This document shows, piece after piece, positions 7,069 to 38,445 of a stretch of 38,743 bases of DNA (its first letter is position 1; each line of letters starts with the position of its first letter). The notes under the pieces are model-generated. The model was not told where the DNA came from and searched no databases. It worked only from the letters and a program-made list of their open reading frames with translations. The position numbers and the translations under genes were made by a program. The DNA comes from a virus, in IMG/VR virus record IMGVR_UViG_3300042343_001635, positions 1 through 38,743 of that record; one strand, 5' to 3'.

Positions 7069-10000
7069 TTATAATGTAGATGGTGTATAAGAACCGTTGA
7101 CATCCCCATAAGCAAGAGCTTTTAGGTTTTTATTAATAGGTGTGCCATTCCACACAACAGATTGTGTTTCATATACCCAGTTCCCCACATTAAATGAAGA
7201 TATTCCACCGCTAAAACGACGGTTGGCTGTCAAAGCATCCAAAGAATTGATGGTGTTGGAGCCGTTTACATCAGCTGCTTTAAGTCGGAGCCCCGTCAAA
7301 GGAGTCGCACCGGTGAAGTGTCTCGTAATAGCCAATGCATCCGACCCATTCACACCACCCCATGGTTTGGTGGTGCGACCAACCAAATAGTATTCTCCAA
7401 TCGGTAGTGGAACTGGGTTCATACCGGGGGTGACCAAAACATTCTGAACATCCATTGTATAATTACCAGCACTATTGGTTTGTACGCTTATAAGCGGAAT
7501 AGTACTACCAGTTGGATAAAGGCGAACTTCACTAAAAGTCATTGGTGTTCCTGCAGTATTATCATATTTAAAACTGCCGCTAATTATGTATGTTGATGTA
7601 GATAGAACCTCTATAGTACCTGATACTGTACACCCATCTGTATTTGAAATTGTGTATGTGTATGTTTGTGCGTTTGCGTTAGCATCGATAGTACCACCAA
7701 TTGTTATTGTATGTGGTGAGGTTGGGGCAACTGAATAAGTAATCCCTGCAGGTAACCCAGACACAGTTATTATCGGGTCATCGTTATTATAAACTATATT
7801 TGTGATAGGGGATGATTGTAATACTGATTGGTTATCATATCCTGATGATAGGAATAGTCTGGTATTGCATGGTGGTGGTGGTGCGGTCCCTTCTAAGCTA
7901 GATGAAAAATAATAAATTTGACCTGTAGCTTCATCATATGTTAAAACATGATTTCTATAGCTTTGAGATAAATACTGAAATTTTACATCAGCGAATAGAA
8001 ATGAATTGTTATAATTAGGATTGGGTGTAACACTAAAACTACCCGTTATTTGAACTTGAGGAGCGATACCTGCCATAGCACCACCATAGGCTACTAATGT
8101 GTTACTTCGATTGCCAGGATCAGAACCATTACCAATTACAAAAGAGTAATTTTGGTTTAGTTGTTGATTATATGAACCAATAGCATGTTGGTGTGAGGAC
8201 GAAACAATTAATCCTTCTCCCTGTGCAAACCCATTTAATAAATAAACTTCGTTTAATTGACCGTGTGCAAACCCATAACTTTGCCTAAATAGAGTATTAT
8301 TATTTCTTGGTGGTGAGGTAGTAGATACACCTGGTCCACCATACTCATTTGGTCCTCCAAAATTACTTTCACCATATACATCTAAAGAGTATGATGGTGG
8401 TGCGCCTATACCAAGCCCAATACCCTCAAAATCACCAGGATTTTCATTTTCGTAAAATTTATTTCTTACATATATCCAATTTTTATATGCGTTAGAATCA
8501 TACGGCCCATTTATAGTAAAAATAACATCACCATCAAAACTTGCAGAATGAACCTGTGCAGTTGTTATTTCATCTAAAGTAGTGTTACCTGTGGGAGCTG
8601 TGATTTTATCCGAAGAAATGTTTCCAGATATGTTTGTTGCTGCTATAGTTCCTTGTACTAATAATGAGCCTGTAATTTGAACAGATGAACCTGTTAAATC
8701 TACAAACATAATATTACTTCTATTTGCAGCACTCGTTCCATTACCAATTATAAATGAACCTGTCCCACCAAGAGGTATATTATATCTTCCAATTACATGT
8801 TGAAAACTTCCAGATGATATAGTTCCTTCTCCGGCTACATATGAACCAATCGCAAGAGGTGATGCGAATGAACCCGAACCTGCGGTATGCGACCACTTTG
8901 CCCAAGCTTTTGTAAAATAACCTTCCGCATGCGCCCCATCAGCACCTTTTACTTCACTTTCTATACCTTCTACATGAGAGTAGTTTGAGGACTGAATTAA
9001 GTTATTGTTTCCTTCAGCATGCGAACCAGTTGCACTTGTTATCGTATTAAAAGAACCCTCCGCGTGCGAACTATATGAACCACCATCAATTGTGGCATGG
9101 TCCCCCTCCGCATGAGAATATAATGAATCTTCTATGGTATTTCTACTCCCTTCAGTATGAGAGTAATGTGAATTTTTAATTTCAGGGGAATTCGTGTCTC
9201 CTTCACCTTCACCTTCTGCATGAGAATATTCTGAACCAGCAATTACATTTCTATAACCTTCAGCATGAGAACCATCTGAATCTTGTTTTATTAGGTTTGC
9301 AACACCTTCAGCATGCGAATATGGTGAGTTTGTTTCAATTTCATTATCATAACCTTCTGTGTGAGAAGCCACAGAATATGTTCGGGTTGATTGACCTTCT
9401 GTGTGTGCATATATTGCCGATGAATGGGCTACAGTAGCATAACCCTCTGCGTGAGAACTATCAGCATTGGCCTCACTATCATTTCCTTCCGCGTGAGAAT
9501 ATAATCCAGATGCTAATGTTGAAAACCCCTCTGCATGAGAATATTCTCCCAAAGCAGTTGTAACAGCCCCTTCTGCGTGCGAACCAACACCACCTGCGTT
9601 TGTAGAACCACCTTCCGCATGAGAGTTTGAGCCTGATGCGATTGTAAGATAACCTTCGGCGTGAGAGTAATCACCATATGCTCTCGTATCACGCCCTTCA
9701 GCGTGAGAGTAATCTCCCGCAGCCCACGAAAAATAACCTTCAGCATGAGCAGCTTGTCCAGAAGCTGTTGTATAATAACCTTCAGCGTGAGCGTAACTGC
9801 CTGATTTTGCCCATGGAAAAACATCAATTATACCCACATATGTTTTATAACCTTCCGCGTGCCCAGCTATACCCCTAACAATTGTATCGTGCCCTTCAGC
9901 ATGTCCTGCTGAACCCTCAGCTTTAACAATAGAACCACTTCCCTCTGCGTGTGAATAAAAAGCACCATTTTCGGTTATTGTATAAAATCCATGTGCATGA

Positions 10001-11616
10001 GATTGAGAGCCGGATGGTGAAACTCCAACACCTTGTCCAAATCCACCATTGTTATAGTCGTAAAAAAATGTTTGTGGTGCACCAGTTCCACCAAATGTAC
10101 TATTAGAATTATATTGTATATCGAAATTTATACCACCAGGAGTACCGCCACCACCAGCAACCAAAGATGATGTGGACATATAGGTGAGTTCTTTAGTACT
10201 TGCATTAAATACAACTACCTGTGTTTGAGTGGATGATTGTAACTCAGCGGAAAATCTTCCACCAACATGCAAAAGAGTTTGGGGGTTGTTAGTTCCAATA
10301 CCTATAAAGGAATTATTATTTTGAAAAATATTTGATGATGATAAAAAGTTTGAACCACTATATAATGCAATATATGTCGGAGTCCCACTTCCAGACAATA
10401 AATTAGATGGTAGTGTTACTCCACCCCCGCCACCATAAGAGCCGGTGAGTTTTATTTGTCCTGTTGTATTATCTCTAACCAATACTGAATTTGATACATT
10501 CCCCGCAGATGATGCGGAAAAGTACAAACTACCACTTAAATGAACATTACTACCCGATACTAAAACATTTCGATTGCTTACTTCTATAAATGTATTAGTT
10601 GAACCCTCAACTTTTAGTAAAGATTCAGTATCACTATTTCCTTTAACTTGTAATCTATATGTTGGTTCAGTTACATTTAATCCTACATTACCACCAAAAT
10701 AAGATCTTGTAGAACCTGATGTAAATATTGCCCAATTATTACTTCCCGAATTCAATAAATTTATGTGAACCCCATACAAATTTGATATAGCTCCCTCTGA
10801 ACCAGAACTATTTAGTATGTTAATATTATATGCGTTGGTAATTACACTAGGTTGAACAGTAGAGTCAATTTTAGTTTGAATCGCTGATGCGGATACAATT
10901 GTTGTACCACTGGTATTTTCTACTCTACTAAAAAGACCAATATAAGGAGATTCGTTGGTATAAATATGTAATTTTGCTGATGGTAATGATACACCCGTAC
11001 CGATACCTATTCTACTACCACTTTCATATATAGATGATGTAGTAATTGTATTAGGACCACTCCACCTAGTTATATAATTTGTTGTTCCACTACCACCAAC
11101 AAAAGATGATGTTGAAAAATAAGTGAATCTGCCTGATGCGGTATCATACCCTATAATATTAGGTTGAGATACATTTGGTAGTGAACTTGCGGTTATAGTT
11201 GTTGTCCATAAAGAACCACTTACTTGAAGGGTGTTTGTAGGTGTTCCTGTTCCGATGCCTACATTACCACTACCTGATACATAAATTATATTATTAACCG
11301 CAGGTGAATCTATTTCAAATAGTCCACTATTACTTGCGCCTGATATGTGTAGTTTTGCCTGAGGTGTTGCTAATCCCATCCCCGTTCTACTGCCGGAAAC
11401 AATTATGGCTTCTTGGTTGAATGTTCCCATTTTAATGGTATTGTCTGAAAAGACTTCCATAATGGGTATCCCCGAAATATCGTTTACGGAGAATAGTGAA
11501 CCTGATAACGAATCGGTTATTGAGAACAATTGTCCTTGCGAACCCTGAACATCAAATATGTTAGAGCCTGAACCTTGTACTATGAGCCCTTTACGGACTT
11601 TGAATTCGTTTGCCAT
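7069..11616 (-). CDS. Giant tail fibre adhesin with HAEG repeats and dockerin-like C-terminus
   Basis: At 1515 residues this is the largest protein in the window. The N-terminus (MANEFKVRKGLIVQGSGSN; VNDISGIPIMEVFSDNT) is of a type found at the base of T4-like phage fibres. Residues ~80-480 hold VGIGT-type beta units. Residues ~550-915 carry about 23 copies of a [SAG]-H-[ATV]-E-G unit, a YadA/hemagglutinin-like beta-roll. After further fibre units and a PPPPC linker come an Ig-like domain (VSGLPAGITYSV, YTISNTDGCTVSGTIEV), a carboxypeptidase-regulatory-like beta domain, and two dockerin-like segments (VNGSDALAITRHF; DVNGSNTINSLDALTANRRF), ending GDVNGSYTPSTL. Those last ~270 residues resemble secreted Bacteroidota surface proteins and suggest acquisition from a host. 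The SD is AAGGAAA, 8 bases before ATG. Confidence 0.88.
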   Translation of the reverse strand: MANEFKVRKGLIVQGSGSNIFDVQGSQGQLFSITDSLSGSLFSVNDISGIPIMEVFSDNTIKMGTFNQEAIIVSGSRTGMGLATPQAKLHISGASNSGLFEIDSPAVNNIIYVSGSGNVGIGTGTPTNTLQVSGSLWTTTITASSLPNVSQPNIIGYDTASGRFTYFSTSSFVGGSGTTNYITRWSGPNTITTSSIYESGSRIGIGTGVSLPSAKLHIYTNESPYIGLFSRVENTSGTTIVSASAIQTKIDSTVQPSVITNAYNINILNSSGSEGAISNLYGVHINLLNSGSNNWAIFTSGSTRSYFGGNVGLNVTEPTYRLQVKGNSDTESLLKVEGSTNTFIEVSNRNVLVSGSNVHLSGSLYFSASSAGNVSNSVLVRDNTTGQIKLTGSYGGGGGVTLPSNLLSGSGTPTYIALYSGSNFLSSSNIFQNNNSFIGIGTNNPQTLLHVGGRFSAELQSSTQTQVVVFNASTKELTYMSTSSLVAGGGGTPGGINFDIQYNSNSTFGGTGAPQTFFYDYNNGGFGQGVGVSPSGSQSHAHGFYTITENGAFYSHAEGSGSIVKAEGSAGHAEGHDTIVRGIAGHAEGYKTYVGIIDVFPWAKSGSYAHAEGYYTTASGQAAHAEGYFSWAAGDYSHAEGRDTRAYGDYSHAEGYLTIASGSNSHAEGGSTNAGGVGSHAEGAVTTALGEYSHAEGFSTLASGLYSHAEGNDSEANADSSHAEGYATVAHSSAIYAHTEGQSTRTYSVASHTEGYDNEIETNSPYSHAEGVANLIKQDSDGSHAEGYRNVIAGSEYSHAEGEGEGDTNSPEIKNSHYSHTEGSRNTIEDSLYSHAEGDHATIDGGSYSSHAEGSFNTITSATGSHAEGNNNLIQSSNYSHVEGIESEVKGADGAHAEGYFTKAWAKWSHTAGSGSFASPLAIGSYVAGEGTISSGSFQHVIGRYNIPLGGTGSFIIGNGTSAANRSNIMFVDLTGSSVQITGSLLVQGTIAATNISGNISSDKITAPTGNTTLDEITTAQVHSASFDGDVIFTINGPYDSNAYKNWIYVRNKFYENENPGDFEGIGLGIGAPPSYSLDVYGESNFGGPNEYGGPGVSTTSPPRNNNTLFRQSYGFAHGQLNEVYLLNGFAQGEGLIVSSSHQHAIGSYNQQLNQNYSFVIGNGSDPGNRSNTLVAYGGAMAGIAPQVQITGSFSVTPNPNYNNSFLFADVKFQYLSQSYRNHVLTYDEATGQIYYFSSSLEGTAPPPPCNTRLFLSSGYDNQSVLQSSPITNIVYNNDDPIITVSGLPAGITYSVAPTSPHTITIGGTIDANANAQTYTYTISNTDGCTVSGTIEVLSTSTYIISGSFKYDNTAGTPMTFSEVRLYPTGSTIPLISVQTNSAGNYTMDVQNVLVTPGMNPVPLPIGEYYLVGRTTKPWGGVNGSDALAITRHFTGATPLTGLRLKAADVNGSNTINSLDALTANRRFSGGISSFNVGNWVYETQSVVWNGTPINKNLKALAYGDVNGSYTPSTL
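8878..9960 (-). repeat. Coding tandem array of ~23 HAEG units
   Basis: Within the 1515-residue fibre, the core [SAG]H[ATV]EG recurs about every 14 residues, from SHAEGSGSIV to a degenerate last copy SHTAGSG. Spacers are variable (TTASGQAA, TRAYGDYS, TIASGSNS). Spacing is usually 14 residues, with longer loops at several positions (for example around KTYVGIIDVFPWAKSG and EGEGDTNSPEIKNSHYSH). This fits a left-handed beta-roll with one turn per unit and loops protruding at insertions. Confidence 0.85.
11158..11196 (-). repeat. 39-bp exact direct repeat, copy 1
   Basis: These 39 bases are identical to 13744-13782. They encode part of the shared module ITASSLPNVSQPN in two different fibre genes (1515-residue and 256-residue). 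The coding region downstream of each copy is also similar at protein level (GYDTASGRFTYFSTSS versus GYNTTSGTFTYFSTSS). This marks a recent duplication or recombination between fibre genes. Confidence 0.85.
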
Positions 11617-11687: not shown

Positions 11688-12380
11688 TTATATCCCAAAA
11701 CGTCCTCTCATTGCATTGAAGTTTTGTTGGATTTGTGGTAATGTTAGAGCAGCATTGTACATTTTGTAACTTGCTATACTACCAGTAAAAAATTGAGTTG
11801 AATTATTGTTATCTCTTCCTAAATTCCAAGTATTTGTGGGCCATATTGTATCCCCTAACCAAGTCAAACTTCGAGATGCTTTTAATTCACCATTTAAGTA
11901 AATGTATGAATTTGTTGGGGTAGCTTGAAATACTATATTATTCCAAGAACCATCATCTCTAATATTAGTATTATGGGTATATGTTAAATTTTGAGATGAT
12001 GATCCTGAACTTATTGAGAGTACTACACGATTAGTTAAGTCAAAGTATGCTCTAATACCATAAGTAAAACCAAATAAACCAGGTGTTGTTCCTGTTGTTG
12101 GTACAGTACCTTTACTTTGGGTCCATAAATCTATTGTAAAACTAGTTAATGGAAAAAATGTGTTTCCTGTTCCAAATGAAATAGTATCGTTTATACCATC
12201 AAAGTTAAATACCCCACCATTTTGTGAACCGTATGTTGCTCCTGATGTAGTTCCATTTTTGCTATTTCCACTTAAATCTCTCCAAGTAGTACCTGAGCCG
12301 GGGTATGATGTAGGATTAGCAGCATCTACTGATATTACTAATCCTGTTTCTATTGTGTTAGGTCCACCAAAAGTTGCCAT
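11688..12380 (-). CDS. LamG-like (concanavalin A fold) lectin domain protein, copy A
   Basis: This 230-residue single-domain protein opens MATFGGPNTIETGLVISVDA, then AANPTSYPGSGTTWRDLSGN, the usual start of phage and bacterial LamG/laminin-G-3 modules. The fold is supported by FNFDGINDTISFG, FTIDLWTQSKG, WNNIVFQATPTNSYIYLNGEL and the terminal SYKMYNAALTLPQIQQNFNA. It is a paralogue of the next gene at 12384-13061. It has no signal peptide or enzyme motif, so sugar binding at the tail tip is the likely role. It lies 3 bp from copy A's partner and 71 bp upstream of the giant fibre. No Shine-Dalgarno sequence precedes the ATG, so translational coupling is likely. Confidence 0.85.
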   Translation of the reverse strand: MATFGGPNTIETGLVISVDAANPTSYPGSGTTWRDLSGNSKNGTTSGATYGSQNGGVFNFDGINDTISFGTGNTFFPLTSFTIDLWTQSKGTVPTTGTTPGLFGFTYGIRAYFDLTNRVVLSISSGSSSQNLTYTHNTNIRDDGSWNNIVFQATPTNSYIYLNGELKASRSLTWLGDTIWPTNTWNLGRDNNNSTQFFTGSIASYKMYNAALTLPQIQQNFNAMRGRFGI

Positions 12381-12383
12381 ATC

Positions 12384-13061
12384 TTATAATCCAAATCGGG
12401 TTTTAGTTGCATTATAGTTTTGTTGGATTTCACTTGCGGATAATAACCTATTATATTGTCTTGTAATTGAAACATCGCAATTTAGATAATAAAATTCACC
12501 ACTAAAATCTCTATTTTGCCTTCCAATAGACCAAGTAGTTATCTGCCCAGAACCTATATCATTGGTTTGAAATTCGGATGTATCTAAAGCACCGTTTACA
12601 TAGTAAGTACAATAATAACTGTTTCTTAATACTGTTGTAATTTGATACCATCCTCCCAATGATAATGTTGTAGATGATTGGACGGCTGAACTATCATCCC
12701 AATACCAAGAAAACTTTCCATTAGATAAAACCATAAGAGCACCAGTGGTGTTTTTTTGTCCTGCTAATAATCCACCTTGAGTTACAGGGTAAGAGTTTAT
12801 TCGTGTCCATATTTCCAATGTTCTATCGGCTGTGGGTAATAAATACAACCCAGTATTTGTTATGGTGGCGTATTGGTCAGTTCCATTAAATCCTAAATAA
12901 TTACTATCAGCGGTTGGTGTATTAATTAAAGACCAATTATAAGAATTCCCACTTAAATCCTGCCAAGTAGTACTGCCACTTATATAGGATGTAGGATTAG
13001 CAGCATCCAATGCTAAAACTAACCCGTCAGTAACTACATTTGGTCCTCTATAAAATCCCAT
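12384..13061 (-). CDS. LamG-like (concanavalin A fold) lectin domain protein, copy B
   Basis: This 225-residue paralogue of the gene at 11688-12380 has the same frame: GPNVVTDGLVLALDAANPTS, TTWQDLSGN, YLGFNGTDQYATI, RTLEIWTRINS, YYVNGALDTSEF and the closing ITRQYNRLLSASEIQQNYNA. The central loops, which carry specificity in LamG folds, differ strongly from copy A. Two lectin-like genes side by side between fibre genes suggest alternative or combined receptor binding. Spacing to the upstream 256-residue fibre gene is 4 bp with no Shine-Dalgarno sequence, again pointing to coupling. Carbohydrate binding is inferred from the fold. Confidence 0.85.
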   Translation of the reverse strand: MGFYRGPNVVTDGLVLALDAANPTSYISGSTTWQDLSGNSYNWSLINTPTADSNYLGFNGTDQYATITNTGLYLLPTADRTLEIWTRINSYPVTQGGLLAGQKNTTGALMVLSNGKFSWYWDDSSAVQSSTTLSLGGWYQITTVLRNSYYCTYYVNGALDTSEFQTNDIGSGQITTWSIGRQNRDFSGEFYYLNCDVSITRQYNRLLSASEIQQNYNATKTRFGL

Positions 13062-18766: not shown

Positions 18767-21700
18767 CTATAAGTATTTTATTGAAGAAAAAGAGTTTATT
18801 TTATTTATATCAATTATCTGGTCTACCATATCCCTCGTTTTATCTATGTGGGATATCGTAATAATAAAATCAAATTGAGTTTTTAAATAATCAAATAGCA
18901 AATACAAAGAATTAAAATTATCAGTATCCAGTGAACCAAACCCCTCATCAATAGCGATAAAGTTTGGACGGGGTAGGTTGGATATACTAATTAATGCGGT
19001 TCTGATTGCGATTGAACTCACAAACTTTTCCATACCACTTGTCAACTCTAATGGCCAATACTTATCATCTCCATAGCAAATATATGAGTTGATGTTTTTA
19101 CCATCGGTATCTAATATGATTTGGAAATCCACTATAGGTTGAAGAATATTGTTAATTTCAATCTCCAACGTTGGTAATATTTCTGCTATCAATCCATATG
19201 GAATACCATCCCGCTTAACTGCTGATAAGTAGTGTTCGTATCCATTATACTTTAATTCCATTTGATTTAATTTTTTTACAGATTCATTTACAGACTCAAT
19301 TGTATTTTTTTGAACACGTAACTCACCCAACAAATCTATTAAATCGGTTGTAACCTTATTTAATTCGGATTGAGTTTCCAATCTTTTTTGTTTTAGTGAA
19401 TTAATTTCTTCATTAAGTTTGATGTTGAATTCAACCGATTTTTCTTGCTTTTTGGCTTTTTCAATGTTCGCAGATATTTTTTCGTATTGAGATTCGTATT
19501 GGTTATAATCGGATTTAGAATCATTTAATTCAGATAAAAGATTGTAGTATTTGCGGTTTACCTCTTGCTCTTTTTCTTTGACCTGATTTACCTTATCCAA
19601 CTCCGTTTTTACATCACACCCCTTTTGTGTTTGAACTTTTTCTGATAGTTCGGTTTCTAATACGGATATCTTTTTAGTTAGTGTTACTATTTTAGTTTCC
19701 AATTCCAAACTTTGCTTTGCAAATGGAGTGTTTTTATTTTTAACACAATGTTCACAATTATCATCGTATGTAAAAGAACCAATACCATCCAAATGCTTTT
19801 TGGTATGTGATAGTTCAATCTGATACTTTGATATGGTTTGTTTTATTAATGCGATATCCCGCTCTAAAACACGCCATTCATTATCTTTTGCTTTTAATTC
19901 ATCTAAATCATACTCTTTATAGAACTCGCCAATTCTTTCAAGCTTTTCCTCTAATGGTTTTACTTGGGATTGTAACTCCCTTATATTGGATGATATTGTT
20001 CCTATAGAATTCCTACAATCTTTTAATTCGGCATTTAATAACTCTAAGTTCAGATTACCATCCACCACAATTAACTTTGCAGACTTATCCTCAATTTGGT
20101 TGTGTATATTGTTAAGATTAGTTTCAAAATTTATTTTTTTGTTTTCCAAATCAGAAATAGAACCTGTTATAGATTGAGATACTAATTCGGCCTTAGCCAA
20201 CTTTGTTGGAAAATCTTGCCCCTTATAATCTTTCAGTAAGGTTGATAACTCCTTTATTTCTTCACTTGCTACTGAATACAATTGCTCAAACACATCCATA
20301 TCCAAAAATTGAGCAAGTAACTCTTTTCGTTCTTTTTGTGATTTATCAATAAAACCACTATTGTTAAATTGAGTTGAGAGAGCAGTCAATATGAAATCAT
20401 CATATGTTCCTACATACTGCCTAATAACTGAATTTGTATCTCTTCTTTCATCACCATTCAAACTTTCAATATCACCCATATCATTGAATGTGTAAAATTG
20501 AGTATCAACTTTTACAGTTCCCTTTTTGGTGGATTTATTTGCGGTTCTCTCAATTACATAATCCCTGCCATTTAGTTCAAAGATAAACTTACAATAAAAA
20601 TTGTTTTTAGAATAATTCATCACATCAACTGCTTTTGATGTTCGGGAGCACTTATCAAAAATACAAAAGGATAAAGCATCCCACAAAGAAGATTTACCAC
20701 TTGCGTTGGGAGCAAATACACCATACGCCCCTTTCATATTTTGAAAGTTTATATAGTTATCTTCCCCATAAGAAAACATATTTGAGAATTGAAATTCTTT
20801 TGGAATCCAAACCGAACTCCGAATTGCATGAGGATTTACAATCTTTGAGTTTATATCAGCGTTTATACCTTTGACAACTTCTAAAGCTTCTGAATCAATA
20901 CCAAACTTTTGGGTCAAATAATCTTCCAATAGTTTATTTTGAAATCCAACATCCCTTACATTATGTAGAGTTATATGTTCTCGTTTTCCAACTTCGTTTG
21001 TAGATAAAACTTTCTGAATACTTAACTCTTCTATTTCATATTTCTTTTTTAAAGAAGATACAATTTTATTCAACTGTGATGTGGTTGTATCTTTAACCCT
21101 TAATCTTAATCTTGGCTTTGGGCAAATGTAATTATTTGATACGATTTTACCATCTTCAATATCAATAGTTCCATACCCATACGCATTCTCAATATGAACG
21201 AATGTGGAGGACTTTGTTGGTACATCCCATACCAATATCCCATGCTCAGGATAAATTGATTCTGAGTGGTTCTGTGTAATCAGGGAGCCTGGGTACTTTA
21301 TAGTATCCACACCTGATACTGAATTATTGGGAACATGGATATCTCCCAAAAGAACAATATCATATCCTTTAAAAGAATCCACCGTAACTTTTTTGTTATC
21401 AATCTTAAATCCATGCTCAGTTTGTATTCCATCAACGGGTCCGTGATAAAGAGCGATTTTAAAATCCCCATCAACGCCCGAACTATTTGTAAATCCATCC
21501 GATGAATCGAATACTGATTTGTGTGCGAATACGATGCCACCAAACTCAAAGGTTGTAGTGTTTTTGTAGTAATATAAGTTTGGGTGATTTAAAGCATCAA
21601 CAATTGGTGATAACGCATCTAACCGAGAAGGGTTATTTAGATTTGCATCGTGGTTGCCAGGAATTAAAATGGTGGGCATGATATCCGATAAATTTCTCAA

Positions 21701-21907
21701 AAAGTTTTGAGTCATATGTACCACCTCCGGCGTCATATCGGTTTTAGCGTGAACTATATCCCCAGCTAATACAATAGCAGAGTCTTCAGTTACAACTGAT
21801 TTTAAGTAATCATATAAACGATTAAAAACTAAAGAATACTCTTTATGTCTTTTTAAGTTTCGTATATGAACATCAGCAATATGATAAATCTTATTTAACT
21901 TTTTCAT
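18767..21907 (-). CDS. gp47-gp46: Fused gp47-gp46 recombination nuclease/ATPase (Mre11-Rad50/SbcD-SbcC type)
   Basis: This single 1046-residue ORF combines two proteins that T4 makes separately (gp47, 339 residues; gp46, 560 residues). Residues 1 to ~350 are a calcineurin-type nuclease: IADVHI (D12, H14), GD at 49-50, GNHD at 84-87, and later YHGPVDG and LLGDIH. From ~residue 370 a Rad50/SMC ATPase follows: Walker A GVFAPNASGKSSL (~400), long coiled coil, zinc hook CEHC (~720), signature LTSGMEKF (~957), Walker B FIAIDEGFGSLD (~987) and a switch histidine in TISHIDKT (~1020). All key motifs are present, so both halves look active. In T4 this complex resects DNA ends for recombination-dependent replication. 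The ATG overlaps the primase stop (ATGA) and has AGGAG upstream. Confidence 0.95.
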   Translation of the reverse strand: MKKLNKIYHIADVHIRNLKRHKEYSLVFNRLYDYLKSVVTEDSAIVLAGDIVHAKTDMTPEVVHMTQNFLRNLSDIMPTILIPGNHDANLNNPSRLDALSPIVDALNHPNLYYYKNTTTFEFGGIVFAHKSVFDSSDGFTNSSGVDGDFKIALYHGPVDGIQTEHGFKIDNKKVTVDSFKGYDIVLLGDIHVPNNSVSGVDTIKYPGSLITQNHSESIYPEHGILVWDVPTKSSTFVHIENAYGYGTIDIEDGKIVSNNYICPKPRLRLRVKDTTTSQLNKIVSSLKKKYEIEELSIQKVLSTNEVGKREHITLHNVRDVGFQNKLLEDYLTQKFGIDSEALEVVKGINADINSKIVNPHAIRSSVWIPKEFQFSNMFSYGEDNYINFQNMKGAYGVFAPNASGKSSLWDALSFCIFDKCSRTSKAVDVMNYSKNNFYCKFIFELNGRDYVIERTANKSTKKGTVKVDTQFYTFNDMGDIESLNGDERRDTNSVIRQYVGTYDDFILTALSTQFNNSGFIDKSQKERKELLAQFLDMDVFEQLYSVASEEIKELSTLLKDYKGQDFPTKLAKAELVSQSITGSISDLENKKINFETNLNNIHNQIEDKSAKLIVVDGNLNLELLNAELKDCRNSIGTISSNIRELQSQVKPLEEKLERIGEFYKEYDLDELKAKDNEWRVLERDIALIKQTISKYQIELSHTKKHLDGIGSFTYDDNCEHCVKNKNTPFAKQSLELETKIVTLTKKISVLETELSEKVQTQKGCDVKTELDKVNQVKEKEQEVNRKYYNLLSELNDSKSDYNQYESQYEKISANIEKAKKQEKSVEFNIKLNEEINSLKQKRLETQSELNKVTTDLIDLLGELRVQKNTIESVNESVKKLNQMELKYNGYEHYLSAVKRDGIPYGLIAEILPTLEIEINNILQPIVDFQIILDTDGKNINSYICYGDDKYWPLELTSGMEKFVSSIAIRTALISISNLPRPNFIAIDEGFGSLDTDNFNSLYLLFDYLKTQFDFIITISHIDKTRDMVDQIIDINKINSFSSIKYL
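18802..18809 (-). promoter_or_regulatory. Candidate T4-type late promoter box before fibre block
   Basis: The coding strand reads TATAAATA here, within the last codons of the fused nuclease and 51 bases upstream of the 484-residue structural gene. That is the canonical T4 late -10 box in sense orientation, at the point where early-type genes give way to fibre genes. It could also be chance within AT-rich coding sequence. Confidence 0.35.
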
Positions 21908-22848
21908 TTTCTCCTAAACATTTTATACTCCACTAAACTTAACAAATTCAATTCAGGTGTATTGTATATTTTTGTGTTTATCTTATCGTAACCTAATTCA
22001 GATGCGTCCTCCGAACCCAACTGAACTAAGTGAACTTTAATCCCCCAACCCATTAGTTTTTCGCATAGTTGGATAGAGTTATTAATAGCATCGGAATCTA
22101 AGCAAACATAGATACGGGACACTTTTTTATCTAAAATTTTCTTTTCTAATTTAGGTGGAATGGTTTTACCAAAAATAGGAATTGCGTTTCTACGAATTGC
22201 GATTGCATCAAAAACACCCTCACAAATAACAATTGGTTCATTCCAATTCACATACAAATCAAACCCAATAATATCTTTGGATACTTTTGGATTTTTATGC
22301 TTTTGTGGTGTATCATAAAAAGCCCTACTAACAAAGTAATTTAACATACCATCTGAATCGTATGAGGGAATAATAATTTTATTACTATATTCACCCTCAA
22401 CACAATACCCCATTCCATACTTAACAATATCACCAGGTCGGATTCCCCTACCTAAAATGTAATTTAAGGCGTGCGAATAAATAACGGACTTGGATGATTC
22501 CCAAAGAGGAGTAAACTCTTTTGGTAGTTGAACAAATGTTTGTTGTTGTGTTAATTGTTCAGTCGGTTGTGTGTATTTTCCAATGTTTCTGAAAATAGAA
22601 TTGTATTCATCCCATATTTGCGAAGATACATTTAGTTTTTTAAAGAGAGAACGAATCGTTTTTCCCTTTTCATCCGATATCCAACAATGCCAAGGGTTAT
22701 CACCAGCAGCCGTTGTTTTTATGTTTATTTCAAGCTTTGGTTTGTAATGTTCGGCAAATGGTGAATAAAAAGCATAGTTATCCCCAGTGGTTTTTTTACT
22801 TTTACCCAAAACCCGTTCTAATAACTCAATCAATCTTTCTTCTACCAT
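21904..22848 (-). CDS. gp61: DNA primase, T4 gp61-like (Toprim)
   Basis: This 314-residue protein is close to T4 gp61 in length. The Toprim core is clear: IVICEGVFDAIAIRR (~residue 208) with the catalytic Glu, then IYVCLDSDAINNS (~252) with the DxD metal site. A typical upstream core is present (YILGRGIRPGDIVKYGMGYC, NKIIIPSYDSDGMLNYFVSR). In the N-terminal domain the zinc-ribbon ligands are largely replaced: S29, A32 and S58 stand where Cys is expected, and only C55 remains in WHCWISDEKG. It would synthesise RNA primers for lagging-strand replication together with a helicase encoded elsewhere. It overlaps the Mom-like gene by 23 bp and the nuclease gene by 4 bp, so one transcript is likely. 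Confidence 0.93.
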   Translation of the reverse strand: MVEERLIELLERVLGKSKKTTGDNYAFYSPFAEHYKPKLEINIKTTAAGDNPWHCWISDEKGKTIRSLFKKLNVSSQIWDEYNSIFRNIGKYTQPTEQLTQQQTFVQLPKEFTPLWESSKSVIYSHALNYILGRGIRPGDIVKYGMGYCVEGEYSNKIIIPSYDSDGMLNYFVSRAFYDTPQKHKNPKVSKDIIGFDLYVNWNEPIVICEGVFDAIAIRRNAIPIFGKTIPPKLEKKILDKKVSRIYVCLDSDAINNSIQLCEKLMGWGIKVHLVQLGSEDASELGYDKINTKIYNTPELNLLSLVEYKMFRRK

Positions 22849-23440
22849 TTCTTAAATCGTAAGTATAAATATACTTTGGTAAGTTAGTAATTATTTTTAC
22901 ATTCTCATCACCCGCTTTGTATCTCCTATTTATTTCAACCCCATAAGGTCTATCCAACATAGAAAGGGTTCTAATGTGAAATGATTTACCATCCACCTCC
23001 AATGATTTTGATGGAGATGTTTCACCTAAATAATTAAAATTAGAAGCACGATAGATAACCCCCTTATGCCCCTGATTTTGGTCTGCGTAACTTATTATAT
23101 ATTCCCAATCGGTATTTTTTTGTAACCACTTGATTGTTTTAGATATAAAATAGGATTCAGCGTTTTTTGGTGTATCATCTACCAAACACAACCTCCGTAA
23201 CTCCAAAACCTTATCGGGACGGGATGGGTGATATGTCTGCCCAGCAGATGGACCTGCGGGGCGTGTGTAAATACAAACCCCAATTATTTGGGGCATACCA
23301 AAATTTCCTTCCCTAAGTAGAATAAATGCGTGTTTTGTTTGTATATTTACATAATCAGAGTAGTGCCACTTTTTCAAAAAGGCACGAATGTTCTCATTAA
23401 ATGTAGTATGTTCTACTGTGTATGTTTTTACTAAACCCAT
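22826..23440 (-). CDS. Mom-like DNA-modification acyltransferase (GNAT fold)
   Basis: The product resembles phage Mu Mom and its relatives, which use a GNAT-type fold to add a carbamoylmethyl group to adenine N6 and so protect phage DNA from restriction. Numbered from ATG 23440 (204 residues), visible elements are WHYSD (~25-29), a strand IIGVCIYTRPAGPSAGQTYH, LELRRLCLVDD (~78-89) with KNAESYF, and SYADQNQGHKGVIYRASNFN (117-136). A longer reading to 23449 would need a TTG start three codons upstream. The ATG is preferred, although neither start has a Shine-Dalgarno sequence. It sits between endonuclease I and primase. Whether it modifies DNA or acylates something else cannot be decided here. 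Confidence 0.78.
   Translation of the reverse strand: MGLVKTYTVEHTTFNENIRAFLKKWHYSDYVNIQTKHAFILLREGNFGMPQIIGVCIYTRPAGPSAGQTYHPSRPDKVLELRRLCLVDDTPKNAESYFISKTIKWLQKNTDWEYIISYADQNQGHKGVIYRASNFNYLGETSPSKSLEVDGKSFHIRTLSMLDRPYGVEINRRYKAGDENVKIITNLPKYIYTYDLRNGRRKID
22864..22871 (-). promoter_or_regulatory. TATTTATA element upstream of primase
   Basis: An exact octamer within the end of the Mom-like gene, 15 bases before the primase start. It is embedded in a perfect dyad, AGTATA-TT-TATACT. The position suits a promoter for primase and the fused nuclease. Role inferred from recurrence. Confidence 0.35.
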
Positions 23441-23468
23441 TCTACACAATATACAACATAAAAGTTAA

Positions 23469-23888
23469 TTATCCAAATAAAAATGTTTTGGGTTCTTCAT
23501 TTACCCATTCTATTGGAACTTGCTTCGTAGCCCACTTAAAACCATTTTTATCTGCCCACATACCATATGTAGTTTTTGACCTTTTATTTAATTTTGCGTT
23601 TGGGTTCTGAAATACAATTCGTATATCCAAATCAGGCTTTTGGGCTTTTATTAGTAGATGTTTTTTTCTATCCTCTAAAGTAAACCTACCTTTTGTTTCT
23701 ATGAAAATACCATTCGGTAATCTGAAATCAGGTTTGTATGTATGATTTGTTGCGGGTTTAGTGTATTGTATTTGGTGTTTTTCGTATTCACCATCAATAC
23801 CTATTTGTTTTAATTCTTCCGAAACTTTATCCTCTAAACCCGAGCGATGCCCTTTGGTTCTTTGGATGTGACCCCAATTTTTTGGCAT
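23469..23888 (-). CDS. Endonuclease I, T7 gp3-type Holliday-junction resolvase
   Basis: This 139-residue protein is close to T7 endonuclease I (149 residues). All four catalytic positions are present with one residue offset: E19 (SGLEDKVSEEL), D54 (YKPDF), E64 and K66 (GIFIETKGRF). The flanking DRKKHLLIKAQKPDLDIRIV block and the C-terminal KQVPIEWVNEEPKTFLFG are also typical. It resolves branched DNA, including four-way junctions. T4 uses the unrelated gp49 for this, so a T7-type resolvase in a T4-like genome is a replacement, as seen in some marine T4-like phages. The start lies 2 bp after the stop of a structural gene and a TATTTATA element is 26 bases upstream. Confidence 0.93.
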   Translation of the reverse strand: MPKNWGHIQRTKGHRSGLEDKVSEELKQIGIDGEYEKHQIQYTKPATNHTYKPDFRLPNGIFIETKGRFTLEDRKKHLLIKAQKPDLDIRIVFQNPNAKLNKRSKTTYGMWADKNGFKWATKQVPIEWVNEEPKTFLFG

Positions 23889-37821: not shown

Positions 37822-38445
37822 TTAAATAATTTTATCAATAATACCCAATTCAAGTGCTTCTGCAGCGGATAAAAATAAATCACTTTGTTGATTTGACTGC
37901 CACCACTCTTTTGGTTTATTTGTGAATTCAGCCATCATACTATTACACTCATCTTCCAACCTATCCGCAAATTTGGCGTTTGATTTTACATCGCTTAATT
38001 TACCTGCTGCAAAGGTTGATAGTTGGTGAACCATAATCTTTGAATGCTTTGATGCTGCTCTAACCCCAGTACCTGCTGCGAGTAGAAGAGCCGCTGCTGA
38101 CATTGCGATGCCCCTACAAATGATATTAAATTTCATATCTTTGTTTCCTCTGATATAATCAATAATACCAAGAGTTTCTACAACATCACCTCCGCCCGAA
38201 TTTAATAGGATGTTGATTGTGGTTGTTTCGGTATTTACTTTTTTTAGTAGCCGTACTTTAGCAATAAATTCAGGCAGTAATCCCATCTGAATTTCATCGC
38301 AGATTACAATTACATTATCGGTTAAATCAATACCGTAATCAAACTCCCTAAAAAAATGTTTGTGCGGGTCAGTATCATCACCACTTTCATTTTTGTAATC
38401 AAATTTTACATTTGAAGGATTGGTATTATAAAGTTCATCTATCAT
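37822..38445 (-). CDS. ClpP-like serine protease
   Basis: This 207-residue protein is near ClpP length. The catalytic triad reads S116 (RGIAMSAAALLLAAG), H140 (SKIMVHQLS) and D189 (SNQQSDLFLSAAEALELG). The family signature INILLNSGGGDVVETLGIID precedes Ser and ELGIIDKII closes the chain. Phage ClpP-like proteins act as head maturation proteases in some families or as scavenging proteases. T4-like phages normally mature heads with gp21, which is not in this window. It follows a 70-bp gap with a possible Bacteroidota-type -7 box. No Shine-Dalgarno sequence is present. It probably forms an oligomeric ring in the cytoplasm or works in the head, and the choice is not decidable here. Confidence 0.9.
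   Translation of the reverse strand: MIDELYNTNPSNVKFDYKNESGDDTDPHKHFFREFDYGIDLTDNVIVICDEIQMGLLPEFIAKVRLLKKVNTETTTINILLNSGGGDVVETLGIIDYIRGNKDMKFNIICRGIAMSAAALLLAAGTGVRAASKHSKIMVHQLSTFAAGKLSDVKSNAKFADRLEDECNSMMAEFTNKPKEWWQSNQQSDLFLSAAEALELGIIDKII

Follow-up and report, generated by a model that had tools for sequence, protein, structure and literature searches.

A single open reading frame in 38,743 nt of viral DNA (the whole of the stretch analyzed here, positions 1 to 38,743 of IMG/VR record IMGVR_UViG_3300042343_001635, hereafter the window) joins an Mre11-like nuclease to a Rad50-like ATPase. We consider it highly probable that its product is a single-chain phage Mre11-Rad50 (SbcD-SbcC) enzyme of M2R2-like form, which processes DNA ends to feed recombination-dependent replication. 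The fusion is genuine, and chance or assembly error is excluded because the junction lies within one ORF in 86 of the 87 best-scoring IMG/VR loci. This agrees with the first-pass annotation, which had proposed a natural, nuclease-first fusion of gp47-like and gp46-like proteins.

Domain layout and conserved motifs

The ORF runs for 1046 codons from an ATG to a single terminal stop. The first-pass annotation had its coordinates and its uninterrupted two-domain content right and left the strand unstated; the gene lies on the minus strand. Its parts are as follows.

18767..21907, minus strand: single ORF, Mre11-like nuclease plus Rad50-like ATPase, 1046 aa (Pfam, PHROG)
21188..21907, minus strand: calcineurin-type nuclease domain, residues 1-240, with D12, H14, D50, N85, H86, H155 and H191 (Pfam Metallophos, conservation, SbcD 7dog)
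21335..21346, minus strand: GDIH, residues 188-191 (conservation, alignment to solved SbcD)
20978..21187, minus strand: predicted capping domain, residues 241-310, approximate (AlphaFold2 model)
20840..20950, minus strand: predicted helix-loop-helix, residues 320-356, with helices 320-334 and 339-356 (AlphaFold2 model)
20813..20839, minus strand: nine-residue linker, residues 357-365 (constant length in alignment)
20228..20812, minus strand: Rad50-type ATPase N-lobe, residues 366-560 (alignment to solved SbcC/Rad50 chains)
20690..20707, minus strand: Walker A NASGKS, residues 401-406 (conservation)
19217..20227, minus strand: predicted coiled coil, residues 561-897 (AlphaFold2 helices)
19745..19756, minus strand: CEHC zinc hook, residues 718-721 (conservation)
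18770..19216, minus strand: Rad50-type ATPase C-lobe, residues 898-1046, including signature and Walker B (conservation)
19028..19042, minus strand: ABC signature TSGME, residues 956-960 (conservation)

The nuclease motifs (D12/H14, G49-D50 and G84-N85-H86-D87) and ATPase motifs (Walker A at 401-406, C718-E-H-C721, LTSGMEKF at 955-962 and D987-E988) listed in the first-pass annotation were all located in the ORF. Pfam Metallophos matched residues 6-193 above its cut-off (2.7e-9) and PHROG 77 (SbcC-like) matched residues 345-1045 (5.9e-53), while SMC_N and AAA_23 fell below their Pfam cut-offs on the ATPase half. The window protein thus has the Metallophos fold, DxH, GD, GNHD and distal His of Mre11/SbcD nucleases, as well as the bipartite ABC ATPase (Walker A, signature and Walker B), coiled coil and CxxC hook of Rad50/SbcC. 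Conservation among 65 distinct fusions is nearly complete at these positions: D12, D50, N85, H86, H155, G188, D189, H191, N401, G404, K405, C718, C721, S957, G958, M959, E960, D987, E988 and H1020 are kept in all 65, H14 in 64, and S406 in 63, with T in the other 2. The coiled coil is the least conserved portion. At the signature, the fusion has TSGME, whereas aligned split phage proteins mostly have SxGE or SxGQ.

One catalytic motif departs from the usual form. Residues 188-191 (GDIH) align to the GHIH or GHLH of solved SbcD chains, and Asp189 replaces the first of the two metal-binding histidines of GHxH. Because T5-like protein D12 (GDLH) and, according to PMC3175470, Mimivirus R555 also have Asp here, the motif appears to be a variant inside the Mre11/SbcD family rather than the mark of an outsider. 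With Asp at this histidine position, the nuclease may differ in metal binding and activity. We rejected GDIH as a hallmark of fused proteins: PAU (GHIH) and XacN1 (GHFH) are fused, and T5-like D12 is split.

In the AlphaFold2 model, residues 5-300 matched S. aureus SbcD 7dog (Z 25.1, 276 residues, rmsd 3.6) and residues 367-1046 matched E. coli SbcC 7yzo (Z 31.7, 350 residues, rmsd 3.7). The 7yzo alignment starts at SbcC residue 1, and the first residue of solved SbcC/Rad50 chains falls opposite fusion residues 365-367. Confidence was low at residues 300-311 (pLDDT below 50), and a pTM of 0.49 leaves the placing of nuclease relative to ATPase in the model unsupported. The helix-loop-helix at 320-356 is likely the Rad50-binding part of Mre11, judging from the model and from the T. 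maritima complex as described in PMC3175470. The nine-residue linker that follows showed 0 gaps in 414 alignment cells and no inserted column across 46 aligned fusions, and its residue identities vary. This single-chain order, nuclease ahead of ATPase, with a helix-loop-helix and a linker within the estimate of about 9-12 residues for natural fusions, is the arrangement that PMC3175470 gives for R555-like proteins.

The junction and the origin of the fusion

The first-pass annotation had itself cautioned that an assembly or sequencing indel might have merged two separate genes. The IMG/VR relatives sampled were the 87 best-scoring loci, the second scan having taken the best 80 of at least 558 relatives. 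Complete fusions in one closed ORF numbered 77, and 9 loci leave the fetched stretch; the one locus not spanning the junction, L019, stops before it, and L031 has a TAA inside the coiled coil, distant from the junction. Among 119 loci picked by ATPase signature alone, 83 were fused (GDIH in 81, GDVH in 1, motif not found in 1), 32 were not callable, 3 were chance matches and 1 was the contig of L031 with its TAA in the coil. No callable locus of either sample was split at the junction, the opposite of the refuting condition set by the first-pass annotation (relatives that always keep the two genes separate here). The samples overlap, as 33 of the 116 loci new to the signature scan share an identical signature neighbourhood with the first sample, and 11 loci were examined from one match list of 90 records. 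The junction is also in one ORF or CDS in Mel-JY01, LR756501, PTm1, pT24, PAU and MA9V-1. It is, moreover, under purifying selection. Across residues 340-380, dN/dS was 0.110, 0.069, 0.034 and 0.125 for the four more distant window pairs, and across residues 320-370 it was 0.049-0.161 for five further pairs. The two closest window pairs gave 0 synonymous and 1 non-synonymous change at 340-380 and, at 320-370, a value of 0.278 resting on one change of each kind. Together with the constant linker length, these data leave a merging indel scarcely credible.

Other collections added little. Two loci came from 130 pattern stretches in the Genome_contigs scan, of which L095 is without a nuclease domain and L096 leaves its contig. 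A plasmid collection yielded one weak match to the ATPase only; the plasmid fusions named in PMC3175470 had no match at 1e-5 in this collection, which may lack those plasmids. The interrupted LR756508 copy gave no relevant Rfam match for a group I intron, with two irrelevant matches below threshold. RNA families and tRNAs were not found in the window.

As the simplest origin, the first-pass annotation had favored a lost stop codon in a T4-type operon. The nuclease-first order is that of T4, and such a fusion exists in XacN1, whose protein falls with T4-like proteins and is an independent fusion inside that clade. We compared half-trees of 11 split pairs, 20 chosen members of the set of 65 distinct fusions, and 4 other proteins. 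In neither half-tree does the window's lineage fall within the T4-like gp46/gp47 clade, so this origin is unsupported for the window, and no T4-like split pair was seen branching inside its family. In none (0%) of 200 bootstrap trees did a single split separate all 24 fused proteins from the rest. Genes 46.1 and 46.2 intervene between T4 genes 47 and 46 (443 nt), and the event must be old, since identities within the fused family are as low as 42%. We therefore regard recent loss of a stop codon in an operon of the T4 47-46 type as very unlikely. Stop loss in some other adjacent gene pair is possible. T5-like nuclease and ATPase genes overlap by 14 nt, and the nearest split nuclease in the nuclease tree is T5-like (88/82, on a very long branch), although not so in the ATPase tree.

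An internal start or cleavage could yield free nuclease and ATPase acting as an ordinary two-part complex. In-frame ATG codons occur at residues 377 and 391 and TTG codons at 327, 331 and 408, and M377 is 97% conserved. However, a start at 377 would delete strand 366-375, which opens the ATPase in the AlphaFold2 model, and by eye no strong Shine-Dalgarno sequence lies in the 20 bases upstream, although some phages use weak ones. We regard this reading as very unlikely. Less likely still is a defence-like SMC-nuclease of the Lamassu type, aimed at rivals rather than at replication: PADLOC's LmuB profile hits the ATPase half (3e-21), but the match is limited to the shared SMC/Rad50 part (397-1022), three scanned neighbours had no PADLOC match, and primase and endonuclease I genes share the operon.

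Gene neighbourhood and proposed role in replication

Three genes lie immediately upstream of the fusion.

21904..22848, minus strand: DnaG-type primase (Toprim), with a 4-nt overlap with the fusion start (phrog_47, 2.9e-34)
22826..23449, minus strand: Mom-like DNA modification protein (Pfam Mom, 3.3e-34)
23469..23888, minus strand: T7-type endonuclease I, third gene upstream of the fusion (Pfam Phage_endo_I, 2.7e-55)

The primase precedes the fusion in 85 of the 87 best-scoring IMG/VR loci, the remaining two beginning inside the fusion, and endonuclease I is present in 73. Endonuclease I, primase and fusion likely form a replication operon. The primase and the Mom gene sit between endonuclease I and the fusion; a Mom-like gene was found in 19 of these 87 loci, namely L068 and the window's 18 closest.

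In related phages, the slot after the primase is taken by one of two alternatives, the fusion and a PD-(D/E)XK exonuclease; among the 149 loci of 160 that could be called, none had the two together within 3 kb. This alternation is new in this analysis. In immuto-like phages, the exonuclease occupies the fusion's place in the operon. The 160 primase loci combine the best 80 of at least 421 with a second set, found from the immuto primase, of the best 80 among 253. The exonuclease-to-fusion ratio among them is therefore uninformative on abundance; the exonuclease search used a single query sequence. This either/or slot suggests that the enzyme resects DNA ends for replication coupled to recombination, and it offers a direct test of the enzyme's use to the phage. 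Immutovirus has no phrog_77 match whatever, so the enzyme is replaceable. Across whole genomes the fusion and the exonuclease do not strictly exclude each other: fusion-bearing G004 also shows a weak match to phrog_298 (1e-5) at another place. Recurrent swapping between the two is not supported: the primase tree needs two changes, but its starred branches force only one. That tree had 158 rows and was built by a quick method with two long-branch warnings, and L095 was labelled a fusion in it.

In eight IMG/VR relatives (97-187 kb), the fusion was the sole phrog_77 match in each, and Metallophos was confined to it in seven; G004 has two additional small phosphoesterase ORFs. Mel-JY01 has two further, weak phrog_77 matches, and LR756501 has a separate SbcC-like gene in addition to its fusion. 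Of 11 records searched, 9 gave a RecA-type recombinase: 8 of the 10 that carry the fusion and, weakly, Immutovirus. The two shortest gave none.

Under the favored reading as an end-processing Mre11-Rad50 enzyme, the nuclease domains would hold two chains together in an M2R2-like head, and each chain's helix-loop-helix would grip the base of that chain's own coil. The active sites would open and close as ATP is bound and hydrolysed, and broken or terminal phage DNA ends would be trimmed or nicked for a phage RecA-type recombinase. Such processing could feed recombination-dependent replication, as is thought for T4 gp46/gp47. Two-gene Mre11-Rad50 complexes are already 2:2, so the 1:1 stoichiometry first suggested as a benefit of fusion stands only as a slight gain. 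A compact Mre11-Rad50 that occurs naturally as one chain would be handy for structural and single-molecule work, since its nuclease and motor must stay together.

Comparison with known systems

The first-pass annotation had treated the fusion as unusual, which does not hold: PMC3175470 reported natural Mre11/Rad50 fusions as early as 2011, and phrog_35725 is already a fusion-length family (1376 positions, of which the 1318-aa PTm1 protein covers 8-1369). By title and abstract, PMC3175470 was the only report to describe such fusions among those listed by our literature search on fused phage Mre11-Rad50, SbcCD, gp46-gp47 and R555. That study could confirm fusion in only a few long environmental sequences, and in it R555-like genes on aquatic scaffolds adjoin phage primases and endonucleases. 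The fusion is now seen in one ORF across dozens of contigs, with gene context.

T4 gp47/gp46 share with the window protein the two domains, their order and a likely role, but are encoded by two genes with 46.2 and 46.1 between them, carry GHFH and SEGEK motifs and form a separate clade. XacN1 ORF305 is a 1099-aa single-chain fusion like that of the window, but it lies within the T4-like proteins. E. coli SbcCD shares the fold of the ATPase half, whereas the nuclease half aligned with S. aureus SbcD instead, and the two E. coli genes overlap by 4 nt rather than forming a single ORF. The PAU-like jumbo phage proteins (PTm1, pT24, PAU and MA9V-1; phrog_35725) have nuclease and ATPase in one CDS and group with the window in both half-trees. 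They are longer, however (about 1300 aa versus 1046 aa); PTm1 shares 21% identity with the window protein and has no primase match adjoining its fusion, and PAU has GHIH where the window has GDIH.

In BFVD, the named matches at ranks 1-9 were all from large viruses of eukaryotes and came before pT24 and PTm1. Tupanvirus ranked first (8.6e-73, 26% identity), and ranks 1-5 were Tupanvirus, Harvfovirus, Yasminevirus, Terrestrivirus and Catovirus proteins of 969-1389 aa, with low TM-scores (0.2-0.6) among BFVD matches. It is conceivable, though doubtful, that the window protein stems from an old virus-borne, obligately single-chain branch spanning phages and giant viruses of eukaryotes, with GDIH as an altered metal site, assembly in cis and a replication-operon slot that in sister phages has gone to a PD-(D/E)XK exonuclease. 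If so, two unrelated nucleases would perform the same resection job. Mimivirus R555, likened to the window protein by published description only (PMC3175470), has nuclease first and ATPase second in one chain of 1351 aa with a longer coil. It has His for Asp in GDxxD and Asp at the position of P. furiosus His206, and the window protein likewise has GDIVH and GDIH. The window protein probably works like, and belongs with, the R555-like virus fusions of 2011.

The fused gene and its product

The window is a linear viral record of 38,743 bases, and its features of interest are as follows:

7069-11616: tail-fibre-like protein of 1515 aa with many HAEG repeats
11688-13061: two adjoining Laminin_G_3 lectin-like proteins (230 and 225 aa)
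18767-21907, minus strand: fusion of an Mre11/SbcD-type nuclease and a Rad50/SbcC-type ATPase, 1046 aa
22826-23449: gene for a Mom-like DNA modification protein, flanked by endonuclease I and primase
37822-38445: ClpP-like protease (3.4e-32)

The tail-fibre-like protein carries a dockerin type I match at residues 1420-1467 (9.1e-7), which is odd in a phage virion protein. The two Laminin_G_3 proteins perhaps arose by duplication, and the ClpP-like protease is possibly a prohead protease.

All of the motifs that the first-pass annotation had named in the fusion were found at the residues it gave. Pfam Metallophos matched residues 6-193 above its cut-off, the Pfam ATPase models remained below theirs, and the SbcC-like PHROG 77 profile matched residues 345-1045 (5.9e-53). 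An AlphaFold2 model built from a 46-sequence alignment (mean pLDDT 80.9, pTM 0.49) runs from the nuclease through a capping domain and helices 320-334 and 339-356 to strand 366-375, where the SbcC/Rad50 part starts; because the pTM is low, the placing of nuclease against ATPase is not established. In structure comparison of the model, SbcD aligned with residues 5-300, and the first residue of SbcC and Rad50 chains with solved structures fell at 365-367. The linker between the domains (357-365) varies in residue identity but has no gaps or insertions across the 46 aligned sequences.

The window fusion is a genuine gene and not an artefact. Two IMG/VR scans with the fusion as query, the second limited to the best 80 of at least 558 relatives, gave 87 loci of best-scoring relatives, and a script found the whole fusion within a single closed ORF in 77 of them, with the ORF leaving the end of the stretch in nine. 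The nuclease-ATPase junction was crossed within one ORF in 86 of the 87 loci, bearing out the natural single-chain fusion proposed at first; the sole other locus (L019) stops at residue 137. One contig (L031 and L223) has an in-frame TAA in the coiled coil at 8494, which may be an error or a true nonsense mutation, with the rest of the fusion intact. Several contigs are near-copies, and the complete set of 81 proteins (including those of the window, Mel-JY01, LR756501, and PTm1) contains 65 distinct ones.

As the fusion itself had served as the query for these loci, a second sample was drawn by the ATPase signature alone, using a DNA pattern for TSGMEKF that gave 119 loci among the matches listed. 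The first-pass annotation had held that relatives with the two genes always separate would speak against a fusion, but none of these listed loci was split at the junction: 83 were fused, 32 were uncallable since the stretch ended inside the ORF, three were chance matches without any fusion similarity, and one was the contig with TAA in the coil. The two samples overlap, as 33 of 116 new signature loci have a signature neighbourhood identical to one in the first sample. Across residues 340-380, dN/dS was 0.110, 0.069, 0.034, and 0.125 for four more distant pairs with the window, and the two closest pairs showed 0 synonymous changes and 1 non-synonymous change.

Distribution among named phages and origin

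Both domains lie in one ORF in Mel-JY01 (1066 aa), LR756501 (1202), PTm1 (1318), pT24 (1310), PAU (1301), and MA9V-1 (1326), and MA9V-2, PTm5, and LR756503 matched the fusion at search level. XacN1 ORF305 is also a fusion (1099 aa; L109, 2430-5729), annotated merely as a recombination endonuclease subunit. In LR756508 (L021, 3953-8178), an ORF-bearing insert cuts the gene within the nuclease, directly after the GDIH codons. The insert's ORF is Cys-rich, 305 aa long, and by eye resembles a homing endonuclease; Rfam gave no intron match. LR756501, a 735-kb phage (L022, L106), has a separate 566-aa SbcC-like gene in addition to its fusion. In a yak rumen MAG contig (L095, 1524-3953), the primase is followed by an 809-aa ORF that keeps the ATPase and the region from about residue 299, with the nuclease domain absent.

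T4 gp46 relatives occur in 3283 phage records. Thirteen further phage loci were read, T4 by accession and the rest from lists of fusion and T4 gp46 relatives. Nuclease and ATPase are separate in 10 of these, in some of which the nuclease lacks such annotation and was assigned from place and motif. The remaining three are XacN1, phage G (in whose stretch just an SbcC-like gene is seen), and LR745206 (a separate nuclease of 372 aa).

Trees of 24 fused and 11 split proteins were built from the ATPase head (356 columns) and the nuclease (241 columns). One group of 23 fused proteins appears in both (support 98/98 and 92/78), as does the grouping of XacN1 with T4-like split proteins, and all fused proteins fell on one side in 0 of 200 bootstrap trees; fusion thus happened at least twice among the proteins sampled. 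The window's fusion is the wider of these, and that of XacN1, among T4-like proteins, is independent of it. The origin first suggested, loss of a stop codon in a T4-type operon, is unsupported, as the fused group stands apart and XacN1 alone sits with T4-like proteins. The nearest split protein to the fused group is T5-like D12 in the nuclease tree (88/82), and the T5-like protein sits with other split ones in the ATPase tree. Long branches in several rows, and a warning of joined long branches for the nuclease tree, leave the deep branching order unsure.

Gene neighbourhood and the operon slot

The window fusion likely sits in a replication operon. Among the 87 loci of best-scoring relatives, primase lies upstream in 85 (the other two start inside the fusion); endonuclease I (gp3) is present in 73 and the Mom gene in 19. 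The fusion is the sole phrog_77 match in each of eight IMG/VR relatives of 97-187 kb and the sole Metallophos match in seven. A RecA-type recombinase was found in 9 of 11 records: 8 of 10 with the fusion, among which LR756508 with its interrupted gene is included, and Immutovirus, where the match is weak. The shortest two records are those that lack it. Mutation of T4 gene 46 or 47 makes the phage deficient in recombination and replication, and SPN3US SbcC is essential (PMC5105663); the T4 complex requires ATP hydrolysis for processive 3'-5' exonuclease activity past the terminal base (PMC6265447).

Immutovirus carries a related primase, a related baseplate protein and no phrog_77 match. The fusion's slot holds another gene:

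L113 26447-28151 (with the primase): PD-(D/E)XK exonuclease (phrog_298), directly after the primase

We picked 160 loci by primase, using a mixed query (best 80 of at least 421) and an immuto query (best 80 of 253), and their exonuclease-to-fusion ratio is no measure of abundance: the mixed-query loci had the fusion in 34, a nuclease whose ORF leaves the contig in 12, and the exonuclease in 27, with 7 ending too soon, and the immuto-query loci had the exonuclease in 76, with 3 ending too soon and 1 other. Among these best-listed primase matches, none of the 160 had fusion and exonuclease together within 3 kb downstream of the primase, and none had a split nuclease/ATPase pair after it. The exclusion is not strict genome-wide: in one IMG/VR relative with the fusion (G004), phrog_298 matches weakly (1e-5) at another place, though it matches nowhere in the nine remaining fusion records. 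The primase tree needs two neighbour changes, one of which is forced by the starred branches. A shared role of fusion and exonuclease in DNA-end processing is supported but not proved, and the finding most worth retaining is that the two replace each other in a single operon slot.

Comparison with described fusions

The window fusion is of a kind known since 2011 and is well conserved. At BFVD ranks 1-9, where TM-scores were low, every named match is a large virus of eukaryotes, and ranks 6 and 7 are nameless; jumbo phage fusions follow at ranks 10 and 12. Asp189, which replaces the first His of GHxH, probably occupies the position of P. furiosus His206, as alignment with solved SbcD chains suggests. 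According to a comparative study, almost all jumbo phages have SbcC and SbcD; fusion is not mentioned in the text consulted (PMC7824862). Mimivirus R555 and twelve other fusions, one from a Bacillus phage, have been described, and R555-like genes on aquatic scaffolds adjoin phage primases and gp3-type endonucleases, neighbours of the same kinds as in the window; R555 also has, by the description in the text consulted, the same two residue changes as the window fusion (PMC3175470).
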